NCBI RefSeq assembly: GCF_035593265.1
Contig: NZ_CP141614.1
Coordinates: 2,604,001 to 2,668,000 of the forward strand
DNA from: Limnochorda sp. LNt
GTDB taxonomy: Bacteria > Bacillota > Limnochordia > Limnochordales > Geochordaceae
Length of the DNA: 64,000 nucleotides
Direction of reading: 5' to 3'
The notes below the pieces were generated by a model. It searched no databases, was not told the origin of the DNA, and was given only the letters and a program-made list of their open reading frames with translations. Shown here in pieces: positions 4,937-60,962 of the stretch. The position numbers and the translations under genes are program-made. Every line of letters starts with the position of its first letter. Position 1 is the stretch's first letter.

Positions 4937-4987
4937 TTGACGCCGACCCCGCCCCCGTGTTAGAAGCATTCGCAAGGTTTGCACGCT
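4937..4987 (+). promoter_or_regulatory. Promoter and candidate operator of the ScfR-like regulator
   Basis: TTGACG at 4937-4942 and TAGAAG at 4961-4966 (18-base spacer) form a plausible sigma-A promoter. Directly at the expected transcription start is TTCGCAAGGTTTGCA (4969-4983). This resembles the TTTGCAA-type half-sites bound by RamB/PrpR-class members of the same regulator family, so autoregulation is a reasonable guess. Confidence 0.4.
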
Positions 4988-5009
4988 GCCGCACGGGGGC
5001 GGGTGTCGG

Positions 5010-6530
5010 GTGAGCATCAACCCGATCCACGTCATCTTCGGCCTCAAGCTCCGCCAGGCGCGGCTCGGCCAGGGCCTCTCCCTCACCGAGCTGGCGGCCC
5101 GCGCGGGGCTGTCGCCCTCCTACGTCACCGAGATCGAAAAGGGCCGCAAGTACCCCAAGGCCGACAAGATCTTGCGCCTGGCACGGGCCTTGGGCTACGA
5201 CTACGACCAGCTCGTCTCCCTGCGCCTGGAGCCGCCGTTGCACTTCCTGGAGAGCGCCCTCAGCTCCCAGGTGCTCCAGCAATTCCCGCTGGAGCTCTTC
5301 GGGGTGGATCCGGCGGCCGTGGTGGGGCTGCTGACCCGCTCGCCGGCGGAGATCGGCGCGCTCGCCCAGGCCCTGGCCGACGTGGCCCGCGGCTACAACA
5401 TCCGGGAGGAGCACTTCTTCCGGGCCGCCCTGCGCTCGTATCAGGAGCTGCACGGCAACTACTTCGAGGAGCTGGAGCGGGAGGCCGTGGCCTTCGCCCG
5501 GTCCGTGGGGCTCGACCGTTCGCTGCCCGTGCCCGAGCAGGCCCTGCAGGAGGTGCTGCAGGGCCGCTTCGGCTACGAGCTGGGCCTCATCCCGGCGGAC
5601 GCCCGTCCGGCCCTGGCCGCCTACCGGGCCATCTTCCTACCGGGCCGGCGGCCCCGGCTTCTGCTCAATCCCGCCCTGACCGGGCCTCAGCGCAAATTCG
5701 TACTGGCCCGGGAGGCCGGCTACCGGATCCTCGAGCTCGGCGAGCGCGCCCTGACCAACCCTCCCGACCGGGTCGACTCCTTCTCCCAGGTCCTCAACGA
5801 CTTCAAGGCGGCCTATGTGGGCGGCGCCATCCTCATGCCGGAGCGGCCGGTGGTGGCCGACCTGGCCGCCCTCTTCGAGCTGACCACGTGGCAGCCGGAG
5901 CGGCTCTACCGGCTCCTGGAGGCCTACGACGTGACGCCCGAGACCCTGCTGTACCGGTTCAGCGAGCTGGTGCCCCGCCACTTCGGGCTCAAGGTGCACT
6001 TCCTGCGCTTCTCCGAGATCAACGGCACCTATCGCCTCTACAAGCACCTCAACATGAGCCAGCTCTCGCTGCCCAAGGGCTTCGACCTCAAGGAGCACTA
6101 CTGCCGTCGGTGGCTGACGGTCCGCCTCATCCGAGAGCTGGCGCGCCTCGGCCAGCCGGGCCCCCTGCTGGGCATCCAGCGGTCGCGGTTCCTCCAGTCG
6201 CAGCGCGAGTTCCTCTGCCTGGGCTTCGCCCGGCAGGAGAACCTGCCGCCGTTCTTGCGCACCAGCGTCACGCTGGGACTGCGCATGGACGACGAGCTGC
6301 GGGTCCGGGTGCGCTTCGCCTCCGATCCATGCATCCCCGAGGGCCTGCTCAACGAAACCTGTGAGCGCTGCCCCCTCCCGCCGGAGGCGTGCCATGAACG
6401 CGCCGCACCTCCGGAGCGATGGGAGCAGGAACAGGCCATCGACGAGCGTAGGAGGGCCTTGGAAGAGCTCACGCGCGACGGAGCGCCGGTCGGGGACGTC
6501 CCCTCCAGCGTCTCGTCCGCCACCGGGTAG
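5010..6530 (+). CDS. XRE-family regulator, ScfR/RamB-like (HTH + ImmA/IrrE-like + DUF2083)
   Basis: 506 residues. Residues about 8-65 form an XRE helix-turn-helix (LTELAARAGLSPSYVTEIEKG). The middle resembles the ImmA/IrrE (M78) domain, but the metalloprotease HExxH is absent: the equivalent segment reads LAREAGYRILELGE. The C-terminal part matches the DUF2083 region of short-chain fatty acyl-CoA-responsive regulators (ScfR, RamB, PrpC regulators), including a Cys cluster CERCPLPPEAC. Such proteins control acetate, propionate or glyoxylate metabolism by sensing acyl-CoA. The start is GTG at 5010. The next gene begins 11 nt after the stop, so the two probably form an operon. Confidence 0.8.
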   Translation: MSINPIHVIFGLKLRQARLGQGLSLTELAARAGLSPSYVTEIEKGRKYPKADKILRLARALGYDYDQLVSLRLEPPLHFLESALSSQVLQQFPLELFGVDPAAVVGLLTRSPAEIGALAQALADVARGYNIREEHFFRAALRSYQELHGNYFEELEREAVAFARSVGLDRSLPVPEQALQEVLQGRFGYELGLIPADARPALAAYRAIFLPGRRPRLLLNPALTGPQRKFVLAREAGYRILELGERALTNPPDRVDSFSQVLNDFKAAYVGGAILMPERPVVADLAALFELTTWQPERLYRLLEAYDVTPETLLYRFSELVPRHFGLKVHFLRFSEINGTYRLYKHLNMSQLSLPKGFDLKEHYCRRWLTVRLIRELARLGQPGPLLGIQRSRFLQSQREFLCLGFARQENLPPFLRTSVTLGLRMDDELRVRVRFASDPCIPEGLLNETCERCPLPPEACHERAAPPERWEQEQAIDERRRALEELTRDGAPVGDVPSSVSSATG

Positions 6531-8077: not shown

Positions 8078-8108
8078 GGCGCCCGGGCCTTCATCCATCC
8101 CGGGCGCC
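8078..8108. terminator. Bidirectional hairpin between convergent genes
   Basis: GGCGCCCGGG (8078-8087) and CCCGGGCGCC (8099-8108) form a perfect 10-bp stem with an 11-base loop, between the ends of the M32 peptidase and macro-domain genes. The right arm overlaps the end of the macro-domain gene. There is no T-run on either side, as with other hairpins in this window. Confidence 0.6.
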
Positions 8109-50374: not shown

Positions 50375-50403
50375 TTGACACACCCGCCGGCCCGTGCCAT
50401 AAT
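50375..50403 (+). promoter_or_regulatory. Promoter of amt
   Basis: TTGACA (50375-50380), exact 17-base spacer, CATAAT (50398-50403). It leaves a leader of about 150 nt. ACATGACA occurs twice in the leader (50498-50505 and 50509-50516), 11 bases apart, and ACGTGACA lies upstream at 50351-50358; these could bind a regulator. No known riboswitch was recognised. Confidence 0.75.
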
Positions 50404-50557: not shown

Positions 50558-51874
50558 ATGACGTCCGAGAGTCTGGCCCGTGCCATCGACACGTCGTGGG
50601 TGCTGGTGGCGGCCTTCCTCGTCTTCTTCATGCAGGCGGGTTTCGCCATGGTGGAGGCGGGCTTCACCCGCGCCAAGAACGCCGGCAACATCGTCCTCAA
50701 GAACCTGATGGACTTCTCTGCCGGCAGCGTCGCGTACTGGCTGGTGGGCTTCGCCCTGATGTACGGGGCCTCTGCGGCAGGCCTGCTCGGGACGAGCGGC
50801 TTCGCGAGCCCCTGGTCGGTGACGGGGCTCGAGTGGACCGGCTTGCCCATCGAGGCCTTCTGGATGTTCCAGGTGGTCTTCGCCGGCACCGCCGCCACCA
50901 TCGTCAGCGGCGCCATGGCCGAGCGCACGCGCTTCGCGTCCTACCTCACCTTCGCCTTCGTCATCTCGGCGCTGATCTATCCCATCCTGGGCCACTGGAT
51001 CTGGGGAGGCGGGTGGCTGGCACGCCTCGCGGTGCCCGTCAAGGACTTCGCGGGCTCCACGGTCGTCCACAGCGTGGGCGGCTGGGCGGCGCTGGCCGGG
51101 GTCCTGGCCGTGGGAGCCCGGATGGGGCGCTTCTCCCAGCAGGGGCCCCGCAACGGCATCGAGCCGGCCGTGGCCGGCCACAGCCTGACGCTGGCTGCCC
51201 TCGGGGTCTTCATCCTCTGGTTCGGCTGGTTCGGCTTCAACCCTGGCAGCACGCTGGGGGTGACCGGGGATCGGGCCGCCCTGGCCGCCCGGGTCGCCGT
51301 CAACACCAACCTGGCGGCCGCCACGGGAGCGCTGGCCGGCCTGTTCCTATCCAAGCTGCACCGGGGCAAGTTCGCCGTCGACGCCGCCCTCAACGGCACC
51401 CTGGCCGGCTTGGTCGCCATCACGGCGGGGGCCCCTTACGTGAGCGACATCGGGGCCCTGATCATCGGGGTGCTGGGCGGCGCCACCATGTACGGTGCCA
51501 CGCTGCTCCTGGAGGCGTGGCGGGTGGACGACGCGGTGGGCGCCATCCCCGTGCACGGCGTGGCCGGCGCGGTGGGCACCCTGGCCGTCGGGCTCTTCGA
51601 CCTGGAGACGGGCCTGTTGTACGGGGCGGGCCCGGCCCAGCTCGTCAGCCAGCTCATCGCCGTGGTGGCCTGCTTCGTCTGGACCTTCGGCGTCTCATGG
51701 CTGGCCTTCGCGGCCATCAAGGCCGTCATGGGCCTGCGGGTGACCCCCGAGGAGGAGGCGCACGGGCTCGACGTGCACGAGCACGGCGTGGTGGCCTACC
51801 CCGACTTCACGGCGGGGCATCCGGTGGAGCCGGGCGCGGTCACGGCCCCGGCCATGGGCGCCTCCGGGCGTTGA
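50558..51874 (+). CDS. amt: Ammonium transporter
   Basis: 438 residues, about eleven membrane segments. VLVAAFLVFFMQAGFAMVEAG at the start, FQVVFAGTAATIVSGAMAERT, the first pore His in STVVHSVGGWAALAG, WFGWFGFNPGS, and the second pore His in AIPVHGVAGAVGTL. The C-terminal regulatory tail contains GLDVHEHGVVAYPDF. No glnK/PII gene is adjacent. AGGGAGGGGG lies before ATG. Confidence 0.96.
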   Translation: MTSESLARAIDTSWVLVAAFLVFFMQAGFAMVEAGFTRAKNAGNIVLKNLMDFSAGSVAYWLVGFALMYGASAAGLLGTSGFASPWSVTGLEWTGLPIEAFWMFQVVFAGTAATIVSGAMAERTRFASYLTFAFVISALIYPILGHWIWGGGWLARLAVPVKDFAGSTVVHSVGGWAALAGVLAVGARMGRFSQQGPRNGIEPAVAGHSLTLAALGVFILWFGWFGFNPGSTLGVTGDRAALAARVAVNTNLAAATGALAGLFLSKLHRGKFAVDAALNGTLAGLVAITAGAPYVSDIGALIIGVLGGATMYGATLLLEAWRVDDAVGAIPVHGVAGAVGTLAVGLFDLETGLLYGAGPAQLVSQLIAVVACFVWTFGVSWLAFAAIKAVMGLRVTPEEEAHGLDVHEHGVVAYPDFTAGHPVEPGAVTAPAMGASGR

Positions 51875-51924
51875 GGCCCGGGGCGAACGAAGGCTGACGG
51901 ACCCCTGTCAGGGAGGGGACGCGG

Positions 51925-51972
51925 CGATCCTCCCCGAGGCGGCGCCCCACGGGCCGCCCCGAGGGAGGATCG
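51925..51972 (+). promoter_or_regulatory. Long hairpin covering the ribosome binding site of the next gene
   Basis: Outer arms CGATCCTCCC (51925-51934) and GGGAGGATCG (51963-51972) pair perfectly; inner arms GGCGGC (51938-51943) and GCCGCC (51953-51958) extend the stem. The 3' outer arm holds GGGAGG, the ribosome binding site for the ATG at 51976. It may end the amt transcript, shut off translation of the small gene, or both. There is no T-run. Confidence 0.7.
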
Positions 51973-51975
51973 TCC

Positions 51976-52206
51976 ATGCTCGACCCCTGCGGCAATTTCT
52001 GGTGGACGCAGGAGGCCATCCGGGCCCGGACCCGCGAGGGGTACGCCCGCGCCGAGCCCGCCTTGCGCGGGGAGTATCGCAGCCGGGAGGAGTGGGCCCT
52101 GGCCTTGCGCTCGGCCATGGCCGCCGACGCCGCACGCCGTCGCCGCCGGCTCGCCCGCCGCCTCCGCCGCGGGATGATGCGTCTGCTCGGCCTGCTGGGC
52201 CTGTGA
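51976..52206 (+). CDS. Small Arg-rich hypothetical protein
   Basis: 76 residues: MLDPCGNFWWTQEAI at the start, charged helix in the middle and AARRRRRLARRLRRGMMRLL near the end. GAGGGAGG lies 7 bases before ATG. I do not recognise it. The very basic C-terminus suggests nucleic acid or membrane binding, but this is only composition. It sits between amt and a WYL regulator, 53 bases from the latter. Confidence 0.55.
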   Translation: MLDPCGNFWWTQEAIRARTREGYARAEPALRGEYRSREEWALALRSAMAADAARRRRRLARRLRRGMMRLLGLLGL

Positions 52207-52259: not shown

Positions 52260-53276
52260 TTGAACCGGACCGAGCGCCTGGCGGCCATCACCCTCTACCT
52301 GCTGGCTCGTCGCCGGGTGACGGCCGCCGAGATCGCCCGGGCCTTCGAGGTGAGCGAGCGCACCGTCTACCGCGACCTGCAGGCCCTCGCGGAGGGAGGG
52401 CTGCCGCTCGTCGCCGTGCCGGGGGCGGGGGGCGGCTATGAGTTGCCACCCGCCTACCGGCTCACGCCGCTCACCCTCACCCCGGACGAGGCGGTGGCCG
52501 TCTGGGTGGCCGTCGAGGCCCTCGGCGGCCCCGACCACCCGCTGCGCGAGGCGCTGAGGGGCGCCTGGCTGAGGATCCACGCCGCCCTGCCCGAGGAGCT
52601 GCGCCGCTCCATCGTCGACGTGGGGGCCGCCGTGGACGTGAGCCGCATGGGCCCCGAGGTGCGGGTGGGCCAGGGCGTCTTCGCCGCGGTGGTGCGGGCC
52701 CTGCGGGAGCGGCGCCAGCTCCTCATCCGCTACCACGTGCCGGCGACCGGCGAGACGACCCAGCGGGTCGTCGACGTGTATGGCCTGGCCTGCGTCCAGG
52801 GTCGCTGGTACGCTCCCGCCTACTGCCACCTGCGCGCGGGTCTGCGCTCGTTCCGGCTGGACCGCATCGAGCGGGCCGAGCTGCTGGAGAGCGGCTACCC
52901 CTACCCCCGTGACTTCGACGTCCGCCGGTGGGTGCAGCAGACCTTCGCCATGGCGGATGACGCCGGAGAGCGCCTGGCGGTGCGGGTGCGCTTCTCACCC
53001 CGGGCCGCACGGCGCGCCGTCGACGACCGGTTCTTCCGCGGCTGCGTGGAGCGACTCGCGGACGGCGGCATGGAGGCCCGCCTCAGCCTGCCGGCGCCCG
53101 AGCTCCCGTATTGCGCCGAGCTGGTGCTGGGCTACGCGGGGGAGGCGGAGGCGGTGGAGCCGCCCGAGCTGCGCGACCTGGTCGCCGCCCTCGCCCAGCG
53201 GGTGGCGTCGCGGCACGCAGGACCGCCGGCTACGGACGGCGGCCCTGCTCGCCAGCCTGCGGCGTCGCCGTGCTGA
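52260..53276 (+). CDS. WYL-domain transcriptional regulator (DeoR-type HTH)
   Basis: 338 residues. HTH VTAAEIARAFEVSERTVYRDLQALAEGGLPL followed by a WYL domain: VVRALRERRQLLIRYHV, GLACVQGRWYAPAYCHLRAGLRSFRLDRIERAEL (WYL-like box), and the WCX extension at the end. WYL domains bind ligands or nucleic acids in regulators of DNA damage and other stresses. TTG 52260 has GGGGGGAG just upstream. The end overlaps the convergent DUF2892 gene. Confidence 0.88.
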   Translation: MNRTERLAAITLYLLARRRVTAAEIARAFEVSERTVYRDLQALAEGGLPLVAVPGAGGGYELPPAYRLTPLTLTPDEAVAVWVAVEALGGPDHPLREALRGAWLRIHAALPEELRRSIVDVGAAVDVSRMGPEVRVGQGVFAAVVRALRERRQLLIRYHVPATGETTQRVVDVYGLACVQGRWYAPAYCHLRAGLRSFRLDRIERAELLESGYPYPRDFDVRRWVQQTFAMADDAGERLAVRVRFSPRAARRAVDDRFFRGCVERLADGGMEARLSLPAPELPYCAELVLGYAGEAEAVEPPELRDLVAALAQRVASRHAGPPATDGGPARQPAASPC

Positions 53277-57791: not shown

Positions 57792-58136
57792 GCTGGGCGG
57801 GGGGCGTCCGACCTGTACGACCTGCACGCGCACTTCATCCCGCCGCCGGTCCTCGACTGGCTACGGCGGCACGCGGACGACGTAGGGGCGCGATGGGAGC
57901 GCCGCGACGACGGCCGCGAGGTGCTGGTGGTCGGCGGCAAGTGGCCCTTCGAGCTCAAGCCGGCCTTCTACGAGCCCGAGCGCTTCCTGCGGGAGCAGGC
58001 CGAGGTCGAGGTTGCCCTCATGGTACCGCGCCGCTCCGGGGAGAGGGGGGCGGGGGTTCGGGCTATCCGAACGGCCCGGACGTGCGCGGCGCGCCGGGCG
58101 GCGAGCAGGACCCGAGACATGGGCAACCGGGCCTAA
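57792..58136 (+). pseudogene. Amidohydrolase 2 (ACMSD-like) N-terminal remnant
   Basis: The frame reads SDLYDLHAHFIPPPVLDWLRRH, with the metal-binding HxH and the proline pair of the aminocarboxymuconate-semialdehyde decarboxylase group, then [30 protein letters not shown]. After that, near 58025, similarity ends and an Arg-rich run leads to a stop. There is no ATG, GTG or TTG before the HxH motif. Only about 75 of the usual 300 residues remain, so this is a decayed gene. Confidence 0.7.
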
Positions 58137-58160
58137 ACCCTCGAAGGTGGGTACCGATGA
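58134..58160 (+). promoter_or_regulatory. Sigma-28 (SigD)-type promoter of the chemoreceptor
   Basis: TAAA (58134-58137), exactly 15 bases, then ACCGATGA (58153-58160), against the consensus TAAA-N15-GCCGATAT. It lies about 50 bases before the start of the chemoreceptor gene. Confidence 0.65.
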
Positions 58161-58209
58161 AGGAGGTGGTACACACCATCCGAGCACCCGTCACGAGGAG
58201 GCCGTCTCA

Positions 58210-59934
58210 TTGACCTTCCTGCGCAACCTGCGCGTCTCGATCAAGGTCCTGCTCATCGTAGCCATCAACGTCACCATCTCGGTGGTCATCGGGGCTTGGG
58301 CCATCCGGGGCATGGGCACCATGGAGCAGGCCCTCGAGCGCGTCTACCAGGGCGACGTGCTGGCGTTGGAGGCGGCCTCCCAGGCGGAGCGGGCGGCGCG
58401 CCGCATCGCCGTCGAGGGCCTGACCATGGCCCTGGCCGCCGCCTCCGGAGCCACCTCGGACCTGGCCACCTATGAGGCCAACATCCGGGGCTACCAGGCC
58501 GACTTCCAGGCGGCCGTCGAGTCGTACCTGGCCACCTCCCCGTCGTCCGGCGAGCGGCAGCTCGTGGAGCGCATCATGGCGACCTGGGAGCCCTACGTGC
58601 GGGCCGTCGCTGGATTCACCGCCCTGGCCCGCAGCGGCGCAGACACCGCCGCCGTCATCCAGGCCCTCGAGCGGGACGTAGTCCCCCTTCGCCAGACGCT
58701 GATGAGCCAGATCGAGGAGCTCCAGGGGCTCAACGTCGACGCGGCCCGCCAGCGCCACGACGACAATCAGCGGCTCTACGGCTCCACCCGCTCGGGGCTC
58801 CTCGCGCTCATCGTGGTCGGCGCCGTGCTGGGCATCGCGGTCAGCATGGGCATGGCTCGCCTGGTGACCCGGCCGCTTGGCGCCATGGTGGCCGGAGCCC
58901 AGCGCATGGCGGTCGGTGACCTGACCCGGCGCGTCGGCCACGCTGGCCGAGACGAGGTGGGGATGGCCGCCCGGGCGCTGGACGAGGCGGCCGAGGGGTT
59001 GCTGCGGCTGATCCGTACCGTCCGCCAGAGCGCCGAGCAGGTCGCATCGGCTTCGGAGGAGCTGGCCAGCTCGGCCGAGGAGGTGGGCCGCGCCGTCGAG
59101 CAGGTGGCCGAGACGGTGGACCAGATGGCCAAGGGCGGTCAGCGCCAGTCGGCCGCGGCCGGCACCACCTCCGAAAACGCCCGGGCCATGGGCGAGATGG
59201 TGCGGGAGGTCGCGGAGGCCACCCGCCAGATGGCCGAGCAGGCCGACCAGGCCGCCCGCCTCGCCCGCGACGGCCAGGCGGCCCTGGGTGCCATCACCCA
59301 GCGCATGGCGCACATCGAGGAGACCGTGGGCGAGTCCGGCCGGGCCGTTCAGGACCTGGGTCAGCGTTCGCAGCGGATCGGCCAGATCGTCGACGTCATC
59401 ACGGGCATCGCCGAGCAGACCAATCTCCTGGCCCTCAACGCGGCCATCGAGGCAGCCCGCGCCGGCGAGCAGGGCCGCGGGTTCGCGGTCGTAGCCGAGG
59501 AGGTCCGCAAGCTCGCCGAGCAGTCACGGCAAGCCGCCGCCCAGATCGCCACCCTGGTGAGCGAGATCCGCGAGGAGGTGGAGCGGGCAGTGCGCAACAC
59601 CCAGGCCGGCTCCCTGGCGGTGGCCGAGGGCGTCCAGGAGGTGGAGGCCTCGGGCCAGACCTTCGAGGCCATCACCCACGCCGTGAATCGCATGGTGGAG
59701 CAGCTCCACCAGGTAAGTGCAACCGCTCAGCGCATGGCCGAGGCCGGTGACCAGGTGGTCAAGGCGGTGGACGAAATCGCCGCCATCACGGAGGAAAACG
59801 CCGCGGGCGCCCAAGAAGTGGCTTCCACCACCCAGGAGCAGTCGTCGGCGGTGCAGGAGATCGCCAGCTCCGCAGGCTCCCTGGCGGACATGGCCCAGGC
59901 CTTGATGAAGGCCGTCGAGGCCTTCAAGGTCTGA
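58210..59934 (+). CDS. Methyl-accepting chemotaxis protein
   Basis: 574 residues. First membrane segment at residues 9-30 ([23 protein letters not shown]), a four-helix-bundle sensor to about 195, second segment ([19 protein letters not shown]), HAMP domain ([23 protein letters not shown]), then a coiled-coil signalling domain with the hairpin tip [24 protein letters not shown] 58210 with GAGGAGG 8 bases upstream. The ligand is unknown; it neighbours a sugar transport and kinase cluster. Confidence 0.95.
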
Positions 59935-59938
59935 GCGT

Positions 59939-59982
59939 CGAGGCAGGCTCCCGGGGGCCCGGCTCACCGGGAGCCTGCCTCG
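59939..59982. terminator. 16-bp perfect inverted repeat, bidirectional terminator
   Basis: CGAGGCAGGCTCCCGG (59939-59954) and CCGGGAGCCTGCCTCG (59967-59982) pair fully around a 12-base loop, between the convergent chemoreceptor and PfkB kinase genes. The right arm and loop include the stop codon of the kinase. Confidence 0.75.
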
Positions 59983-60962
59983 ACCAACGTCTCCACCTCG
60001 GACCGGGTCGGCAACGCGGTCATCGCGCCCCTCACCCGTACGGCCAGGGCGCCCGCCGCGTTGGCGAAGCGCAAGGCCCGCGCCAGCTCGGCGGGGGACA
60101 TCCGGCGGGCCGCCTCGACGACCGGCACTCCCTGCCGGGTGGCGGCCTCCCAAAGGCGCCAGAGCAGCGCCGCCCAGAAGGCGTCGCCCGCCCCCGTCGT
60201 GTCCACGGCCTCGACGGCAAAAGTCGGCGCGGCCGCCGACTGGCCGTCCCGCCCCACCGCCCAGCTCCCGTCGGCTCCCTCGGTGACCACGAGCAGCGCG
60301 ACGCGACGGTGCGCCGCCAGCAGGCGCAGGGCTCCCTCCCGGCCGGTCCGGCCGGCCAGGAGCGCCAGTTCCTCCCGGCTCACCTTGACGAGGTCGGCCC
60401 GGTCGATGGCCGCGCGCATCTCGTCGAGGGCCCGGGCGGGATCCCCCCAGAGCGCCGCTCGGTAGTTGACGTCCAGCGAGACGGTGACGCCGGCGGCCCG
60501 GGCCTCCTCGAGGGCGGCCAGCAGGGCGGACCGCCCCGGCTCGTCGGCCAACGTCACGGTGCCGTGGTGCAAGACGGCTGCTCGCCGCACCGTCCCGGCG
60601 TCGAGGTCCTCCGACCGCAGCAGCGTGTCGGCCCCCGGCTTGCGGTAGAAGGCGAACTGGCGCTCCCCGCCCTCCCGGTTGGCGACGAAGGCCAGGGTCG
60701 TCAGGGCCTCGGCCGTCAGGCGCATCCCCGACACGTCCACGCCGTTGTCCGCGAGGAAGCCCCGCAAGAACCTGCCGAAGGGGTCGTCGCCCACGACGCC
60801 CACGAACCGCACCGGCACCCCCAACCGGGCCAGGCCCACGGCCACGTTGGCCGGCGCCCCGCCGGGGCAGCGCTCGAAGGAGACGACCTGCTCCAGCGGG
60901 ACGCCCGGCTGTTGCGAGACCATGTCGACGAGGGCCTCTCCGGCGACGAGGACGTAGGACAC
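59964..60962 (-). CDS. PfkB-family sugar kinase (fructokinase-like)
   Basis: 332 residues. GGAPANVAVGLARLGVPVRFVGVVGDDPFG is PfkB signature 1, and VDTTGAGDAFWAALL is signature 2 with the catalytic Asp. VSLDVNYRAALWGD suggests fructokinase or 2-keto-3-deoxygluconate kinase. The GTG start is 15 bases after the FGGY kinase stop, so the two kinases form an operon. Confidence 0.9.
   Translation of the reverse strand: MSYVLVAGEALVDMVSQQPGVPLEQVVSFERCPGGAPANVAVGLARLGVPVRFVGVVGDDPFGRFLRGFLADNGVDVSGMRLTAEALTTLAFVANREGGERQFAFYRKPGADTLLRSEDLDAGTVRRAAVLHHGTVTLADEPGRSALLAALEEARAAGVTVSLDVNYRAALWGDPARALDEMRAAIDRADLVKVSREELALLAGRTGREGALRLLAAHRRVALLVVTEGADGSWAVGRDGQSAAAPTFAVEAVDTTGAGDAFWAALLWRLWEAATRQGVPVVEAARRMSPAELARALRFANAAGALAVRVRGAMTALPTRSEVETLVEAGSR

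Follow-up and report, generated by a model that had tools for sequence, protein, structure and literature searches.

A hairpin over the ribosome-binding site of a small Arg-rich gene and its possible role in insulating a WYL regulator operon

Why should the ribosome-binding site of a small gene lie within the stem of a very stable hairpin, a short distance behind the ammonium transporter gene amt? The hairpin may regulate the small gene, may end the message of amt, or may do neither. We analysed this locus in its surroundings, a stretch of 64,000 nucleotides (hereafter the window), and compared it with related genomes. The following elements of the window are discussed.

50375-50403, +: likely amt promoter and putative source of read-through RNA, TTGACA-17-CATAAT with TG, 11/12 consensus match.
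50558-51874, +: amt, ammonium transporter gene (PF00909, E 3e-120).
51894-51911, +: palindrome CTGACGG-ACCC-CTGTCAG, putative operator of the WYL regulator, 1 mismatch to CTGACAG-N4-CTGTCAG.
51923-51928, +: predicted -10 element by family geometry, GGCGAT, a weak match; the alternative is GATCCT at 51926-51931.
51925-51934, +: 5' arm of the hairpin, CGATCCTCCC, pairing with the SD.
51935 (about +/-3), +: predicted transcription start, the last T of the -10 element (51928) plus 7.
51938-51958, +: inner stem-loop, expected to stay in RNA made from the operon's own promoter.
51963-51972, +: 3' arm of the hairpin, which is the ribosome-binding site (SD), GGGAGGATCG.
51976-52206, +: Arg-rich ORF of 76 codons, predicted first gene of the operon, with positional counterparts in genomes G002, G003, G008 and G005.
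52260-53276, +: gene of an HTH-WYL-WCX transcription regulator (PF08279, PF13280, PF25583), TTG start.

Hairpin geometry and burial of the SD

The outer stem consists of ten perfect pairs (51925-51934 with 51963-51972), followed inward by two further pairs (51935-51936 with 51960-51961) and by an inner stem of 6 bp (51938-51943 with 51953-51958) that closes a loop of 9 bases. The 3' arm is followed by TCC and then by the ATG at 51976. An earlier note on this DNA had described the 10-bp outer stem, the 6-bp inner stem and the 9-base loop, and had identified the 3' arm as the ribosome-binding site, 3 bases before the ATG; the sequence agrees with this description to the base. On folding, the 48-nt hairpin reached -38.4 kcal/mol (z -5.60), none of 200 shuffles was equally stable, and such stability occurred in just 2 of the 7,994 plus-strand 48-nt segments of the 64 kb. 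Perfect 10-bp inverted repeats are in themselves near chance in this GC-rich window, with 14 in 64 kb vs 10.4 in shuffles. The idea of a repeat element found no second copy of the hairpin, and no Rfam covariance model (riboswitch, thermometer or leader) matched the hairpin region at E up to 1.

Two other hairpins of the window are recorded here as observations in their own right. The most stable one (59937-59984, -47 kcal/mol, without a T-tract) lies directly after the gene at 58012-59934 and overlaps the end of a convergent gene. At 4948-5003, the 3' arm of a perfect inverted repeat stops shortly ahead of a predicted start at 5010, and this repeat is possibly a second start-masking hairpin.

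Opening the SD costs 13.9 kcal/mol, vs a median of 4.1, which makes it the most buried of 170 SD-bearing starts sampled in 464 kb of this genome; the starts were predicted with a simple GC3/SD rule, and the rank is therefore approximate. The burial depends on where the RNA begins. For RNA 5' ends up to 51926 the unpaired probability of the SD is 0.000, and for 5' ends from 51934 onward it is about 0.33, the opening cost dropping from 17 to 6 kcal/mol as the 5' end passes the 5' arm. The SD is hidden only in RNA begun upstream of about 51926. The same 5'-end folding comparison revealed no comparable masking in the corresponding operons of G002, G003, G005 and G008, although G002 and G003 likewise have a same-strand gene upstream.

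The small ORF, the WYL regulator and the palindrome

The ORF at 51976-52206 contains 18 Arg among its 76 codons and has a GC3 of 0.92, compared with 0.87-0.95 in its neighbours. This GC3 is coding-like, and the ORF is the 76-residue Arg-rich gene of the earlier note. The WYL gene begins 53 bases further on, and its product is 64% identical to the G002 protein. An extended start of the WYL gene at GTG 52002 was rejected, since the orthologs align from TTG 52260. In G002 and G003, which belong to the same family, a small basic ORF starting ML directly precedes the orthologous WYL gene, and the gene before it is something other than amt. The relatives keep the pair without amt, which ties the small ORF to the WYL regulator and corrects its earlier placing as a follower of amt. 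Judged by gene order, it is the first gene of a conserved operon with the regulator and no appendage of amt. In G008 and G005, of the same order, the WYL gene is likewise preceded, at a greater distance, by small basic ORFs and by the palindrome; in G005, which is Limnochorda-type, an ABC transporter lies between the small ORF and the WYL gene. The WYL gene is absent from G001, and no nearer relative with the locus occurred in the genomes examined.

Searches of 101 genomes, further genome contigs, Pfam and NCBIfam gave no convincing relatives of the 76-residue ORF, and BLASTP gave no alignment with the small ORF of G003. By position and composition it appears as the counterpart of the relatives' small ORFs, with homology unproven. 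The small ORFs of G005 and G008 are better conserved and share H..LL.EAE.ER and RRRP; their profile found weak matches elsewhere, all without the palindrome. In the comparison of G002 with G003, 7 synonymous and 7 non-synonymous codon differences fall within the first 76 codons, and the stretch of 66 bases that leads from the operator to the ATG is almost identical. The earlier note had looked to conservation of the stem or the small gene: G002 and G003 keep the operon, the operator and the position of the small gene, but not the stem. As a separate observation, the WYL gene of G003 (L032, G003:C4:58817-59826) is broken at residue 204 into two overlapping frames, by a frameshift or a sequencing error.

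The palindrome CTGACAG-N4-CTGTCAG precedes the small ORF in G002 and G003 and is the sole exact copy in each genome. In the 3.0 Mb of the window genome, just two sites come within one mismatch of it, namely 51894-51911 and an exact copy (G000:C1:1323749-1323766; L037:1501-1518) that is flanked by a DinB_2 gene and by a glyoxalase-family gene diverging from it. The latter locus is probably a second target of the WYL regulator. The DinB ortholog of G005, whose protein is 51% identical, also has a palindrome with 1 mismatch upstream, and the palindrome stands upstream of the -10 element of DinB-family genes in two genera (window genome and G005). Binding of the palindrome at 51894-51911 by the WYL protein is likely by analogy with SiwR of Mycobacterium smegmatis, a WYL activator that acts on DinB genes via a palindrome upstream of -10 and frequently has a glyoxalase-family gene as its neighbour (PMC10693628). 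In G005 and G008, the leader from palindrome to small ORF (L034:10280-10570 minus; L040:1690-1900 plus) contains a short ORF (..GSMGCPPxGVRxS) and a hairpin, GAGGCCGTGACACC...CACGGCCTC, followed by T's; this arrangement is attenuator-like and had no Rfam match.

Promoter geometry and the readings of the hairpin

With the nine sites aligned by the palindrome, all of them carry T at position +17 past it and six carry A at +13. Given a background T of 0.12, the probability of T in all nine is about 4e-7 when corrected for 60 positions. The hexamers at +12 to +17 include TATCCT, TATGCT, GATACT, CATCCT and CAGAAT. For one site (L053) we picked the strand by eye; without this site and another uncertain one, T occurs in 7/7. 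In sequence terms, the conserved T at +17 marks the predicted -10 element. The GATCCT alternative in the window would move the start to near 51938. Under either choice, the 5' arm would lie outside RNA made from the operon's own promoter, a placement that follows from the operator/-10 geometry and from a -10 element that is weak in the window. Since nine operator/promoter sites put the start near 51935, the operon's own mRNA is expected to lack the masking arm, which makes it unlikely that a switch acts on this mRNA. Of the translational switch proposed earlier, the masking of amt read-through RNA remains.

We propose that the region controls a two-gene operon, encoding a small Arg-rich protein and then the WYL regulator. 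The regulator would bind the palindrome, which lies upstream of the -10 element, and control both its own operon and the DinB/glyoxalase locus elsewhere. RNA from the operon's own promoter would begin at about 51935, just past the 5' arm, and leave the SD accessible, whereas read-through RNA from the amt promoter would carry both arms, fold into the -38 kcal/mol hairpin and block translation of the small ORF. The hairpin would thereby shield the regulator operon from a strongly transcribed neighbour, much as in gene e of phage T4. Insulation from amt read-through is our best single reading, because the SD is masked in long RNA only, the amt promoter is near-consensus and the terminator scan found no U-tract terminator after amt; we consider the chances of this reading about even. 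It presupposes that transcription reads through from amt and that insulation has been selected for. Insulation would not be general in the family, because G002 and G003 have a same-strand upstream gene without SD masking. The poor -10 hexamer of the window and the frequency of strong hairpins in tandem gaps of this genome also count against this reading.

Alternatively, the amt message could end in the hairpin, which would act as a terminator or decay-stop without a U-tract, with the small gene merely following. Its great stability and its position 50 nt past the amt stop fit this, as do other U-less hairpins in the window at most 4 nt from gene ends (at 8078 and 59937) and the fact that U-tract terminators around the hairpin are at chance level. 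The stem is, however, followed by TCCATGCTC rather than T; it is absent from the terminator scan, and we rejected it as an intrinsic terminator of the GC stem and T-tract type. Strong hairpins are frequent in the tandem gaps of this genome (29/111 vs 12 expected), but divergent gaps are equally enriched, which leaves no tie to gene ends; this enrichment was discarded as proof of U-less termination for being unspecific. The exact identity of the 3' arm with the SD would also be a coincidence, and we regard a 3' end of amt as improbable.

Fortuitous pairing, in which a GC-rich promoter and discriminator complement a GGGAGGA SD by chance and without consequence, seems equally improbable to us. 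The near-chance number of perfect 10-bp repeats and the loss of the stem in G002 and G003 speak for it, and the z-score of -5.6 and the rank of 1/170 in SD burial against it. Least probable, and in our judgement quite unlikely, is a true translational switch, operated by temperature, a ligand or a protein, in the operon's own mRNA, which would then begin upstream of 51925. Any RNA with both arms has an SD unpaired probability of 0, and the burial is extreme among the sampled starts, as such a switch would have it. Nevertheless, the conserved operator/-10 geometry sets the start past the 5' arm, Rfam gave no match, the masking is not conserved in relatives, and a 10-bp GC-rich stem would be hard to open unaided.

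Returning to insulation, a fuller form of it is tentatively put forward and falls somewhat short of an even chance. One 10-bp segment would serve both as promoter, from -10 to start, and as masking arm of its own ribosome-binding site, so that the message would be translatable only from the regulator-controlled promoter; the product would be an uncharacterised small Arg-rich protein of a WYL/DinB stress regulon. If true, a promoter element doubling as an anti-SD arm would provide a sequence-readable rule for recognising operons shielded from read-through out of a neighbouring gene, which as a source of noise is seldom considered in bacterial chromosomes. For a candidate WYL regulator of Limnochordia-type bacteria, it would also supply an operator (CTGACAG-N4-CTGTCAG, with the -10 element at +12 to +17) and a co-regulated small basic protein that evolves fast.

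Comparison with known systems

In the fold-back of IS10, external read-through transcripts mask the transposase start and internal ones do not, and the likeness to the present locus lies in this division. IS10 differs in being a mobile element with antisense control and no tie to a WYL operon. ISPpu9 was set aside as a precedent for read-through masking, its mechanism being different. PafBC (6sj9, 7p5x) are WYL/WCX relatives by sequence (best PDB match E 3e-22), with another regulon and promoter; to our knowledge, no hairpin on the PafBC operon itself is known.

The regulator resembles SiwR, described as HTH-WYL-type, in its HTH, WYL and WCX domains by Pfam, and the loci share a palindrome upstream of -10, a DinB_2 target and an adjacent glyoxalase-family gene (PMC10693628). 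SiwR and its DinB genes are divergently arranged, whereas here the DinB gene lies elsewhere in the genome (DinB site at 1,323,749, WYL gene at 2,656,260); the passages of that report on which we draw mention no small basic gene for SiwR, unlike the operon of small ORF and WYL gene found here (PMC10693628). Because the regulator gene is not adjacent to the DinB gene, we say only that the WYL regulon may work like SiwR. Further traits of a SiwR-like regulon would be binding of the palindrome by the regulator, induction by genotoxic stress and binding of ssDNA.

A close parallel to the hairpin is found in the T4 genes e (lysozyme) and soc, in which a stem sequesters the SD when the RNA comes from far upstream; RNA from the promoter immediately upstream, which misses the 5' portion of this structure, is well translated (PMC3014915). 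The SD of the present hairpin is likewise paired in RNA that begins at 51926 or earlier (unpaired probability 0.000). Gene e is a phage late gene with a measured effect of about 100-fold (PMC3014915), whereas the present case is a chromosomal regulator operon with a start placed by inference. The proposed mechanism is of a known kind, and the present locus would be a new instance of it.
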